Made by a program: the position numbers and the translations under genes
Assembly (NCBI RefSeq): GCF_000429525.1
Contig: NZ_AUCA01000002.1
Coordinates: 62,001 to 126,000 of the forward strand
Reading direction: 5' to 3'
DNA from: Alicyclobacillus contaminans DSM 17975
GTDB taxonomy: Bacteria; Bacillota; Bacilli; Alicyclobacillales; Alicyclobacillaceae
DNA: 64,000 bases
Shown here: one piece after another, positions 58,945-64,000 of the stretch
Layout: each line of letters opens with the position of its first letter
How positions within the stretch are numbered: position 1 is the first letter of the stretch
The notes under the pieces: generated by a model
Told to the model about the DNA's origin: nothing
Database searches by the model: none
Seen by the model: only the letters and a program-made list of their open reading frames with translations

Positions 58945-59457
58945 GTGTTGAAAATCGGTGAAATTCGTGAACTCATTCGGCTATTGGATGAAACCTCTTT
59001 GTCTGAAATCACTTTGGAATTGGATGATATGAAGCTGTATTTGAAGAAACCGGGGGTGGACGCGCCCGCGGTTGTGACGTCTGCGCCTGTCCTGCCCGCG
59101 GCGCAACCGGCTCCAGTGGCAGTGGCACCTGCGGCGGTGCCGGCTCCTGCGGTCTCCGCTACCGCAGCCTCCGTGGCACCGGCTGCCAATCCGGCTGAAT
59201 CAGCGGTTGACGAGAATGTACATATCGTCACCGCGCCGATGGTCGGGACGTTTTATCGCGCTCCCGCTCCTGATGCGGCACCGTTTGTGGAACGCGGTAC
59301 AAAAGTCAATCCGAAAACCGTCGTATGCATCGTCGAGGCCATGAAATTGATGAATGAAATCGAAGCTGAGGTCACCGGGGAAGTGGTGGACATTCTCGTC
59401 GAGAACGGGCAGCTCGTCGAATACGGCCAGCCGCTGTTTAAAATCAAACTGGCATGA
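58945..59457 (+). CDS. accB: Biotin carboxyl carrier protein of acetyl-CoA carboxylase
   Basis: Carries biotin in malonyl-CoA synthesis. N-terminal helical part, a Pro/Ala-rich flexible linker (residues 45-90) and the biotinyl domain with the modified Lys in [13 protein letters not shown]. 170 aa. GTG 58945; the GAGGAG site is 13 nt off, so the adjacent TTG 58948 is an alternative. Overlap or near-overlap with accC. Confidence 0.96.
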
Positions 59458-59474
59458 GGAGACCGAGACGGAAC

Positions 59475-60818
59475 ATGTTTCAGCGTGTACTGATTGCGAA
59501 CCGCGGCGAAATAGCGGTGCGGGTCATTCGCGCCTGCCGGGAACTCGGCATCGAGACGGTGGCGGTGTATTCGGAGGCGGACAAACATGCCCTGCACGTG
59601 CAGTTGGCCGACGAAGCGTACTGCATTGGCCCCGCGCCAAGCAAACAGAGTTATCTGCATATCCCAAGCATCATGACGGTGGCCACGCTGGCCGGTGTGG
59701 ACGCCATTCATCCCGGTTATGGTTTTCTGGCGGAGAACAGTGACTTTGCAGAAGTCTGCGAAGCCTGTGGCATCACGTTCATTGGCCCGAGTCCTGAAGC
59801 GATTGTGACCATGGGAGACAAGGCGGTCGCGAAGGAGACCATGAAGAAGGCGGGCGTCCCCACGGTTCCAGGCAGCGACGGCTTGATCGGTGACGTGGAG
59901 GAAGCGGTCGCGGTCGCGGAGCGCATTGGGTACCCGGTCATTATCAAGGCAACCGCCGGAGGTGGCGGAAAGGGTATTCGCGTCGTTCACGATCCGGAGT
60001 CGCTCCGACAAGCTGTGACCACCGCGCAGCGGGAGGCGGAAACCGCCTTTGGCAACGCGGGCGTTTACCTAGAAAAGTATATTGAGCGCATGCGCCATGT
60101 GGAAATCCAGGTGTTGGCGGATCGGCACGGCAACGTCATCCACTTGGGAGAACGCGATTGTTCCGTTCAGCGCCGGTTGCAGAAGCTGGTGGAGGAAGCG
60201 CCGTGTCCGGTGCTTCCGGAGGAAACGAGGCGGGCGATGGGCGAAGCCGCGGTGGCTGCTGCGCGAGCTGTCAATTACGTCGGCGCGGGCACCATCGAGT
60301 TCATTTATGCGCCCGATGGACAGTTCTACTTTATGGAGATGAATACGCGCATCCAGGTTGAACACCCTGTCACCGAATGGGTGACCAGCGTAGATCTGGT
60401 GCGCGAACAGATTCTGGCAGCTGCCGGCGAGCCCTTGTCCGTGAAACAGGAGGACGTGGAACTGCGTGGACACGCGATTGAGTGCCGTATCAACGCCGAG
60501 GATCCGGAGCGCAACTTCATGCCGTCGCCGGGCACCATTACCGAGTATCTGCCACCGGGTGGCATCGGCGTGCGTGTGGACAGCGCCGCGTATCCCGGCT
60601 ACAGGGTGCCGCCGACCTACGATTCCATGATTGCGAAATTGATTGTATGGGCACCCACGCGTCAGCAGGCGATTGACCGGATGCTGAGGGCCTTGTCCGA
60701 ATTCCGGATTGAAGGCGTGAAGACGACCATTCCCTTCCACATCAATCTCTTGCGCCATGAGCAGTTCCGGGCAGGTGACGTCAGTACCAGGTTCTTGGAA
60801 GAACATAAAATTATGTAG
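59475..60818 (+). CDS. accC: Acetyl-CoA carboxylase biotin carboxylase subunit
   Basis: ATP-grasp enzyme carboxylating BCCP biotin. [20 protein letters not shown] start (cut), [10 protein letters not shown], glycine-rich ATP loop [26 protein letters not shown]. 447 aa. ATG 59475 gives the standard N-terminus; ATG 59454, overlapping the accB stop, would add seven basic residues and may be the coupled start. Confidence 0.97.
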
Positions 60819-60854: not shown

Positions 60855-61262
60855 ATGCAGGACATGGAGTTTCAGTCCAATGATTTAGGCAAGATTCAAA
60901 TTGCGGATGAGGTGATACAGGTCATCGCCGGAATTGCGGCGAGCGATGTGGACGGCGTCGTGGAATTGAGCAGCGGCGGGTTCACGGAGAACCTGTTGGG
61001 CCGCAAACACCCGTCGCGCGGTGTGAAGGTGACCTTCGCGGACGAGGACAAGAGCTGTACCATCGACCTCTCCGTCGTGCTTGGTTTCGGAGTCAACATC
61101 CCGGACGTATCACTGCGCATTCAGGAGAGTGTGAAACAAGCGGTGGAAGGTATGACGGGACTCGACGTCATGCAGGTCAACGTCCACGTGTCTGCGATTG
61201 CATTCCAGACCGATAAGCAAAAAGACCCCGTAGAAGCAGTCGTGGACAAGCGCACACGGTAA
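60855..61262 (+). CDS. yqhY: Asp23/Gls24 family envelope-stress protein
   Basis: 135 aa Asp23 protein. LGKIQIADEVIQVIAGIAASDV and VTFADEDKSCTIDLSVVLGFGVNIPDV fit the family. In staphylococci Asp23 is held at the membrane by AmaP, encoded next here. In Bacillus yqhY lies behind accBC and affects acetyl-CoA carboxylase activity. ATG 60855 after CGGAGGG. Confidence 0.94.
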   Translation: MQDMEFQSNDLGKIQIADEVIQVIAGIAASDVDGVVELSSGGFTENLLGRKHPSRGVKVTFADEDKSCTIDLSVVLGFGVNIPDVSLRIQESVKQAVEGMTGLDVMQVNVHVSAIAFQTDKQKDPVEAVVDKRTR

Positions 61263-61267
61263 AAATC

Positions 61268-61307
61268 GGGTGGCGCAGGCGACCAGTGATGGCTTGGCGC
61301 GCCACCC
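61268..61307 (+). other. Hairpin between yqhY and amaP
   Basis: GGGTGGCGC (61268-61276) and GCGCCACCC (61299-61307) are perfect complements with a 22-nt loop. It might attenuate or protect the transcript. Confidence 0.4.
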
Positions 61308-61330
61308 TGTTGTACATAGGAGGGGGTCTC

Positions 61331-61876
61331 GTGAGTCTTCTAGATCGGATACTGCTGTTCATCCTTGCCATCGGTGGTCTGGCCGCGGCGGTGGTGACCG
61401 TGCTGCTGGGCGTGGGTGTCGTGAACGTCGACGCCGATTGGCTCACCAATCTCACCACTACGCCCGGCAATGTTTACACCGTGGTGGTGGCGGTGATTGT
61501 TGGGCTGGTCGCGCTGCGCTTCGTCTTCTACCGGTGGGCAAGTCCCGAGCCGGATTACGTGTCCATTCCCGGAGAGCACGGGCAGATTCGCATCTCTTTC
61601 GAAACCATTCGGCAACTGGCCAACCGGACGGGGCGAATGGTCCGAGGGGTGCAGGAATTGGAAACCCGCGTCCGCGCCGGGCAAAACGGGATACTCTTGG
61701 CCATCCGCGTGAAGGCGTTGCCGGACCTCGAGTTGGACAAGGTCAGTGGAGAACTACAGTCGGAAATCAAGGCGTATGTGGAACGAACCACCGGTTTAAA
61801 CGTGGAGCGCGTGGTGGTCAACGTGGCCGAAGTGACGGGGAGTCCTGCCAAGAACACCAAGGCATGGGTGGAATAA
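61331..61876 (+). CDS. amaP: Alkaline shock response membrane anchor AmaP
   Basis: 181 aa. Two N-terminal helices (RILLFILAIGGLAAAVVTVLLG and VVVAVIVGLVALRFVFY) precede an Asp23-like soluble domain with GQIRISFETIRQLANRTGR. Anchors Asp23 to the membrane. GTG 61331 after AGGAGGGGG; the longer frame from 61286 crosses the hairpin. Confidence 0.92.
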   Translation: MSLLDRILLFILAIGGLAAAVVTVLLGVGVVNVDADWLTNLTTTPGNVYTVVVAVIVGLVALRFVFYRWASPEPDYVSIPGEHGQIRISFETIRQLANRTGRMVRGVQELETRVRAGQNGILLAIRVKALPDLELDKVSGELQSEIKAYVERTTGLNVERVVVNVAEVTGSPAKNTKAWVE

Positions 61877-61879
61877 ACC

Positions 61880-62113
61880 ATGGCAAAGCTGCGACAGTGG
61901 GCGCTGATGTTGCTGGGACTGAGACGGCGTTGGCTGGGATGCATCGCGGGATGCATCCTGTGGGTATTTTGGATGGTGTTCGGACTGTGGTCCACGCTCG
62001 CGCTGTTGGTGTTGGCCACGGCCGGCTTTGCGGTCGGCCGAATTCTTGAGGAACATCAATCGTGGAAAGACGTGGTGGACAAACTACTGGCGGATCGCTT
62101 TAACGATTCGTGA
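61880..62113 (+). CDS. DUF2273 small membrane protein
   Basis: 77 aa with two helices (WLGCIAGCILWVFWMVFGLW and ALLVLATAGFAVGRILEE) and a short charged tail; the typical third gene of Asp23-AmaP operons. ATG 61880 follows amaP by 3 bp and has only a poor ribosome-binding site, suggesting coupling. Confidence 0.88.
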   Translation: MAKLRQWALMLLGLRRRWLGCIAGCILWVFWMVFGLWSTLALLVLATAGFAVGRILEEHQSWKDVVDKLLADRFNDS

Positions 62114-62143: not shown

Positions 62144-62581
62144 ATGCGACGGGGAGAGTTACGACAAAAAGCGCTCCAAGCGCTGTATCAGATGGACGTG
62201 GGTAAAGCAGAGGCAGATGCAGCCGTGCACCACGTGATGTCCGAAGTCGAGGGCGTGTTGGATGGCGACCTTCGGTACGTACAGCAACTGGTGTCCGGAA
62301 CCAGCGGGCACCTCGAGGAATTGGACGAGCTGTTGCAGAGCGCCGTGGAAGGTTGGCAGCTGCAGCGCATCGCCGCTGTGGAGCGCAACGTGTTGCGGCT
62401 CGCCACGTACGAATTGCTGTACGAATTGGATGTTGATGTGGCCGTCATCCTGGACCAAGCGATTGAGTTGGCGAAATCGTTTGGTTCGGAGGAATCGGGG
62501 CGGTTTGTCAACGGGGTGTTGGCGAAACTGCTGCCCGTGGCGCAAGAACGGCGGCAGGGTCAGTCAAAGGTGGAACCCTGA
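62144..62581 (+). CDS. nusB: Transcription antitermination protein NusB
   Basis: All-helical RNA-binding protein of the rRNA antitermination complex. MRRGELRQKALQALYQMDVG start, ERNVLRLATYELLYE and VILDQAIELAKSFGSEESGRFVNGVL (cut) signatures. 145 aa. ATG 62144 after CGGAGGAAG. In Bacillus folD-xseAB-ispA-dxs follow; here they do not. Confidence 0.96.
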   Translation: MRRGELRQKALQALYQMDVGKAEADAAVHHVMSEVEGVLDGDLRYVQQLVSGTSGHLEELDELLQSAVEGWQLQRIAAVERNVLRLATYELLYELDVDVAVILDQAIELAKSFGSEESGRFVNGVLAKLLPVAQERRQGQSKVEP

Positions 62582-62608
62582 GCGCGTGTACGGTAAAGGA
62601 GAATGGAC

Positions 62609-63592
62609 ATGCGACGGTGCATTCTCGGCATCGATACGAGCAATTACACGACTTCCGTGTGTGCGGTGGATGCGGATACGGGACAATGGGTGTCGGAAGC
62701 TCGACGCGTGCTGCCGGTGAAACACGGTGAAAGAGGGCTTCGTCAGTCGGACGCGCTCTTTTTTCATGTTCAGCAGTTGCCGCAGATGGTCCGGGCTTTG
62801 ATGGGGGGCTTTTCGGAAGCGGCTCGAGTCACGTGGTGCGGCATCGGAGTGTCTGTCCAGCCGCGACCGCAGGCTGCGTCGTACATGCCGGTGTTCCGGG
62901 CTGGGGAAAGTGTGGCCGAAACCGTGGGGGCGCTGCTGGGCGCGCCGGTGGTTCGCACCTCCCATCAGGAGGGCCACATTGCGGCGGCCACGTATTTTCT
63001 GCCAGATATGACGGGAGACAGGCCGTTTTTGGCGGTGCATCTATCGGGTGGGACATCAGACGTGGTATTGGCAGAGGGGACGCGGTTTGGTTATCGTGTG
63101 ACGCCCGTGGCGGAAGGGGCCGATCTTCACGCGGGACAGTTTGTCGACCGTGTGGGCGTGGCGATGGGTCTTCCGTTCCCGGCGGGCCCCCACCTGGAAC
63201 AGTTGGCGCGCCGGGTGTCGTCTTCCACGTTGCGCCTCGGGGGACGCTTGGTGAACGGGCGCCTCAGCTTTTCCGGCCCGTGCTCGGCGGCATTGCGCGC
63301 CATCGAGGCGGGCGTGGATCACGCCGAGGTCGCCTACGCAGTTCAGCAGTGCATCGCCAATGCATTGGTGAAAGCCGTGGATGAGGCATTGCGCCGGGTG
63401 GACGTGAACGTGTCCGATTGCGTCATCGCCGGCGGCGTGGCTGCCAATGAAGCGATTCGCGACAGAGTCTGCCGCCGTCTCGGCATCCTGCGGCCAGACC
63501 TGCGCGTTCGGTTTGCCCCCGCGCGCTATTCCTCCGACAATGCCCTCGGCGTGGCACGCATTGCTTGGAAATTTCTGTTCCGGGGGCGGTAG
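62609..63592 (+). CDS. TsaD/Kae1-like ASKHA ATPase paralogue
   Basis: 327 aa, annotated in relatives as M22 peptidase or sialoglycoprotease. ASKHA fold: LGIDTSNYTTSVCAVD, HLSGGTSDVVL, GPHLEQLA, CVIAGGVAANEAI. The TsaD metal site seems complete: His119 and His123 (SHQEGHIAA) and Asp310 (YSSDNALGVA). True TsaD has ETSCDETA at the start, where this has DTSNYTT, so it is likely a paralogue rather than the t6A enzyme. No TsaB, TsaC or TsaE here. ATG 62609 is spaced better than 62603 from AAAGGAG. Confidence 0.8.
   Translation: MRRCILGIDTSNYTTSVCAVDADTGQWVSEARRVLPVKHGERGLRQSDALFFHVQQLPQMVRALMGGFSEAARVTWCGIGVSVQPRPQAASYMPVFRAGESVAETVGALLGAPVVRTSHQEGHIAAATYFLPDMTGDRPFLAVHLSGGTSDVVLAEGTRFGYRVTPVAEGADLHAGQFVDRVGVAMGLPFPAGPHLEQLARRVSSSTLRLGGRLVNGRLSFSGPCSAALRAIEAGVDHAEVAYAVQQCIANALVKAVDEALRRVDVNVSDCVIAGGVAANEAIRDRVCRRLGILRPDLRVRFAPARYSSDNALGVARIAWKFLFRGR

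Positions 63593-63707: not shown

Positions 63708-64000
<293 letters not shown>

Follow-up and report, generated by a model that had tools for sequence, protein, structure and literature searches.

A TsaD/Kae1-type paralog encoded next to nusB in Alicyclobacillus contaminans and other Bacillota

The X locus and its conserved neighborhood

The window that we analyzed is a stretch of 64,000 nucleotides from Alicyclobacillus contaminans DSM 17975, and all of the features located below lie on its plus strand. Near the end of the window, positions 62609..63592 encode a protein of 327 amino acids, hereafter called X, which the reading of the ORF, profile searches, alignments, and a predicted structure identify as a paralog of the TsaD/Kae1 type. 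Its start codon, ATG 62609, is preceded at a distance of ~7 nt by a Shine-Dalgarno-like AAAGGAG (62595..62601) read directly from the DNA; a second ATG at 62603 is unfit as the start of X because it lies too near this motif. As stated in a preliminary description of this DNA, X comes after nusB (62144..62581; 129.6 bits against TIGR01951, cut-off of 88), which is its immediate upstream neighbor. Before nusB lie an ORF of 77 amino acids (61880..62113; offset -2 from X), an AmaP-like, Asp23-related protein (61286..61876) that scores below the PF03780 cut-off and whose AmaP name is inferred, an Asp23-family protein (60855..61262; 113 bits against PF03780), and an accC-type biotin carboxylase (59454..60818) whose identity was read from its sequence. 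The last three belong to a conserved neighborhood, and the 77-amino-acid ORF is conserved in 78 of 95 X loci. On the other side of X, the window holds the start of a pyridine-nucleotide-disulfide oxidoreductase gene (63738..64000), which runs past the window end.

By ORF calls, nusB is the immediate upstream gene of X on the same strand in 91 of the 95 loci. The four others comprise three ORF-calling artifacts, with nusB in place, and one contig end, so nusB adjoins X in 94 of the 94 testable loci. The gap between the two genes has a median of ~11 nt, the start codons being approximate. The upstream part of the locus consists of accB-accC, asp23, and the AmaP-like gene (some of these names were given from sequence and position), and the oxidoreductase gene is followed by folD, xseA, ispA, and dxs. 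Across the 95 loci, xseA was found downstream of X in 80, ispA in 74, and folD in 64. The conserved nusB-xseA-ispA-dxs synteny points to no named pathway for X. The oxidoreductase that follows X is thioredoxin-reductase-like and scores 165 bits, under the TrxB equivalog cut-off of 343; it is inserted between X and folD in the A. contaminans lineage and is present in 28 of the 95 loci.

Profile membership and phylogeny

X belongs to the broad TsaD/Kae1 superfamily, both by its score against Pfam PF00814 (88.2 bits, gathering score of 24.8, E = 9.6e-25), which is far beyond chance, and by its predicted TsaD/Kae1 fold. Against the narrower profiles, it scored 111.2 bits with TIGR03723 (bacterial TsaD; equivalog cut-off of 296.1) and 96 bits with TIGR03722 (Kae1; cut-off of 375), thus failing both. 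In a tree built from 38 X, 21 TsaD, and 2 Kae1 sequences, each of the three groups was split off by its own branch, with SH-aLRT supports of 100, 97, and 99, respectively. When a HypF outgroup was added, the X sequences still grouped together (bootstrap of 87) beside TsaD plus Kae1, with lower supports. Topology tests did not reject X as sister to Kae1 (p-AU of 0.295) and did not firmly reject X together with TsaD (p-AU of 0.082). X is thus a third clade, separate from TsaD and Kae1, whose depth is uncertain.

Canonical TsaD, TsaB, and Sua5 in the same genome

The preliminary description had proposed searching the genome for canonical tsaBDE genes and placing X in a phylogeny. The A. contaminans genome (99.99% complete) contains three PF00814 places, namely, X, one TsaB, and one canonical TsaD. 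The canonical TsaD carries ETSCDETA, reaches 432.7 bits against TIGR03723, and is encoded in a tsaE-tsaB-rimI-tsaD operon (rimI was named from its sequence). The earlier remark that X has no Tsa partners therefore holds for its surroundings, where none lies beside X, but not for the genome, where tsaE, tsaB, and canonical tsaD sit in one operon elsewhere. Since this operon and one Sua5 occur in the same genome, X is a true paralog. The presence of canonical tsaBDE and the clade of its own that X occupies outside TsaD and Kae1 give good support to the suggestion that X, as a second enzyme, does a different job; the outcome named there as refuting it, a genome with no further tsaD and a place for X inside true TsaD, was not what we obtained.

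The sole YrdC-type protein (PF01300) found in the A. contaminans genome is Sua5, with YrdC and SUA5 domains, and a PF01300 domain search of this genome revealed no second, dedicated YrdC partner for X. Exactly one YrdC-type domain was likewise present in 42 of 83 X-bearing genomes, showing that X does not need a dedicated adenylate-forming enzyme. In these genomes and in A. contaminans, a YrdC-made donor must consequently be the housekeeping threonylcarbamoyl-AMP (TC-AMP). E. coli TsaC is also able to make hydroxynorvaline and serine adenylates (PMC11648230).

Active site and predicted structure

We aligned 95 X relatives with 21 TsaDs and recorded residue changes in E. coli numbering. The metal ligands H111, H115, and D300, the S136-G137-G138 motif, D167, and G267-G268-V269 are kept in 95/95 X and 21/21 TsaD sequences. 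They correspond in X to H119, H123, and D310, to S146-G147-G148 (within SGGT 146-149), to D180, and to G275-G276-V277. The preliminary description had thus correctly recognized both metal histidines, the aspartate of the SDNA motif (D310, within a fuller SSDNA), and the nucleotide motifs, which are SGG and GGV, all of them present in the 95 relatives. It was also right that DTSNYTT (residues 9 to 15, within DTSNYTTS 9-16) stands in place of the ETSCDE of TsaD. X and bacterial TsaD (YgjD/Gcp) accordingly share a two-lobed ASKHA fold, the H-H-D triad, SGG, the ribose Asp, and GGV.

Other residues of the TsaD site have been replaced. In all 95 X sequences, E7 is changed to D, D11 to Y, H139 to T, E164 to Q, and L134 to H. 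C10 is replaced by N, C, or A, and E12 is never Glu in the 95 sequences, being T, R, M, or V. K215, a lysine in 21/21 TsaDs, becomes E in 58 X sequences, L in 20, C in 9, and other residues in the remainder. D11 and E12 of TsaD bind Mg2+, and an E12A substitution abolishes t6A synthesis in E. coli TsaD (PMC4330362). C10 lies ~5 Å from the threonyl group, and about 60% of the activity is lost in C10A (PMC11648230). In T. maritima TsaD, a published contact with TsaE is made by K213, which we matched to E. coli K215 by sequence alignment. X also has an insertion with a SYMPVF loop that TsaD does not have, and it is without the C-terminal tail of TsaD.

The structural model of X has a pLDDT of 95.6 and a pTM of 0.92. 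A Foldseek search against the PDB returned Kae1/TsaD structures as the best matches (TM of about 0.8; 3eno, 2ivn, and 5jmv, all Kae1), with HypF at 0.60. As judged from this prediction and from homology, the fold and site of X are of the TsaD/Kae1 type. The model shows a coil at residues 35-45, where TsaD has helix alpha-1, which is needed for t6A catalysis (PMC11648230). Helices 46-66 and 95-110 would match alpha-2 and alpha-3 of TsaD, the bundle for pairing with TsaB or with itself.

Among the known systems, archaeal/eukaryotic Kae1 shares with X the metal triad and the want of a full DE pair; Kae1 itself has E at the D11 position and K at the E12 position. In Methanocaldococcus jannaschii Kae1, Glu occupies the D11 position and Asn follows SGG, whereas X has Tyr and Thr, respectively. 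TsaB (TIGR03725) is a TsaD paralog with the same N-lobe, but it has a reduced C-lobe and neither a nucleotide nor a metal site, both of which are present in X. The Kae1-like domains of HypF, TobZ, and GdmN have a distantly similar fold with two metal His and one Asp, and X weakly matches HypF_C_2. However, those proteins carry a second metal Asp (D156 in GdmN, LDG in HypF), where X has S146 in 95/95 sequences. The GdmN carbamoyltransferase class needs D156 as fourth metal ligand (PMC9633730), and the Ser at this position makes X TsaD/Kae1-like rather than HypF/TobZ-like. HypF, TobZ, and GdmN also contain a YrdC-like domain in the same protein, whereas X has none adjoining it and the only YrdC domain of the genome is in Sua5. 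We therefore rejected X as a carbamoyltransferase of the HypF/TobZ/GdmN type.

Distribution and selection

With presence defined as an E value below about 1e-60, judged by eye, X occurs at near-full score in 201 of 398 Bacillota genomes. Almost every genome of the family and order of A. contaminans contained a relative, as did at least 572 stretches of the genome collection; among the matches listed, all 80 X loci could be assigned to Bacillota from their titles or lineages. In nine families, some genomes have X and others lack it, so repeated loss of the gene is probable, and X is probably conditionally useful rather than essential. Its position in a spo operon context raised the possibility of a sporulation gene, which we rejected: the association with spoIVA is weak, X being present in 182 of 341 spoIVA-bearing genomes and kept in 19 of 57 that lack spoIVA (statistics that ignore kinship).

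X shares 69% identity with its same-genus relative, compared with 82% for TsaD between the same two genomes, and the changes in X by codon position number 89/61/196. Together with the 38 columns that are invariant over 63 sequences, these comparisons show that X evolves somewhat faster than TsaD yet is under clear purifying selection. An apparent X pseudogene in one genome (G049:C9:160000-163500) was discarded; nusB is frameshifted there as well as X, so a sequencing error is likely. A third match in two genomes lay inside a ketoacyl-synthase-like ORF and was attributed to chance.

Possible functions of X

TsaD/Kae1 is, to our knowledge, among the few universal proteins, and t6A is its only settled role. 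In half of a major phylum, a sister family, represented by X, has been vertically kept with an active site that is intact but re-tooled, which suggests that the same chemistry supports a second reaction. Our leading reading, possible rather than probable, is that X may act as a metal-dependent transferase that takes a group from a donor activated with AMP (probably the TC-AMP made by Sua5) to an acceptor other than A37 of tRNA. Here the donor and acceptor are what we infer, and the fold and site come from prediction and homology. Sequence and prediction show that, relative to TsaD, the pocket around the donor acyl group has been rebuilt, with Y13, N/C12, T/R14, T149, Q177, H144, and the SYMPVF loop. 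Going by what is known of the family, a mixed anhydride of AMP would bind between the two lobes of X, the metal would polarize or activate the donor carbonyl, and a nucleophile would take the group. The donor would most likely be TC-AMP from the single housekeeping Sua5, and the (threonyl)carbamoyl group could pass to another RNA position or to an amine or hydroxyl of a small molecule or protein. TsaE would not take part: X might pair with itself by way of helices 46-66 and 95-110, in the manner of the yeast Qri7 homodimer, or else borrow TsaB. The carbamoyl transfer suggested in the preliminary description is plausible in view of the intact metal/adenylate site. It is conceivable but doubtful that X specifically uses the TC-AMP pool of about half of the Bacillota for a second, novel (threonyl)carbamoyl modification, carried by an RNA position, a metabolite, or a protein; if so, Sua5 would be the shared donor source for two pathways.

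Kinases and ATPases too have ASKHA folds, and Asp, which X has at position 9 (Glu in TsaD), is the usual residue there. It is thus conceivable, if rather unlikely, that X is an ATP-dependent ASKHA enzyme (a kinase, ATPase, or nucleotide-gated regulator) whose triad would hold metal-ATP, with no carbamoyl chemistry. Position 9 is Asp in 95/95 relatives, as in typical ASKHA phosphate-1 motifs, the profiles of CoA-dehydratase activases, AnmK, and BadF match X weakly, and TsaD itself binds ATP/ADP in the same site (PMC11648230). However, an H-H-D triad is what acyl-adenylate transferases typically have, unlike sugar kinases or Hsp70, and TsaD/Kae1 proteins account for all of the closest matches to X in fold and sequence.

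It is quite unlikely that X makes t6A without partners, as an alternative synthase like Qri7, or serves as a t6A enzyme for some tRNAs or conditions. Such a role would fit the fold and the metal and adenylate motifs shared with TsaD, the presence in the model of both helices of the TsaD-TsaB/Qri7 bundle, and the TC-AMP-making Sua5 in the same genome. Yet the replacement of the Mg2+ ligands D11 and E12 by Y and T/R argues against ordinary t6A work, as E12 is indispensable to E. coli TsaD; the model is without the required alpha-1; and X falls outside both t6A clades and is absent from about half of the sampled genomes, whereas TsaD-type proteins are near-universal. The pocket changes alone do not prove that the acceptor of X is different, since Kae1, without the full DE pair, still makes t6A. 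The least probable reading is that X serves the t6A pathway in damage control or regulation, for example by hydrolyzing or sequestering stray TC-AMP or by modulating TsaB/TsaD through binding. This would suit a protein whose adenylate site is intact while its acceptor side has changed, as well as the co-occurrence of canonical tsaD and X in the genomes of A. contaminans and its relatives. However, X has no genetic link to tsaBDE loci, its neighbor always being nusB, it is repeatedly absent from genomes with TsaD, and the invariance of its catalytic residues suggests that it does more than bind.

Whichever its reaction, X is a real, widespread, and apparently undescribed subfamily of the known TsaD/Kae1 kind. 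Open-licence papers yielded nothing on point about a TsaD paralog beside nusB, and a description elsewhere is possible. Its recognition would correct automatic "TsaD / O-sialoglycoprotein endopeptidase" labels.

Records filed as phage or plasmid

Mobile copies of X were not found in a phage collection, in a scan of viral contigs, which returned no relative, or in the plasmid copy that we examined. The best four phage-collection matches are members of the X family, and the annotated weaker matches shown are TsaD/gcp genes. We rejected a phage-borne X in a telling context, as the two of these best four that were checked have nusB-X-xseA, the chromosomal order. Records MT837784.1 and MT835679.1, filed as "Bacteriophage sp." from human feces, carry nusB-X-xseA and are pieces of bacterial chromosome, not phage; one of the two also contains asp23, ispA, dxs, and tlyA. 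One "plasmid" copy of X is annotated "hypothetical protein" and lies within a nusB-xseA-spo0A operon. Most of the Sedimentibacter "plasmid" NZ_CP142397.1 (13.6 kb) is taken up by the core nusB-xseA-tlyA-recN-spoIVB-spo0A operon, and the record is probably a mis-assembled or excised piece of chromosome.
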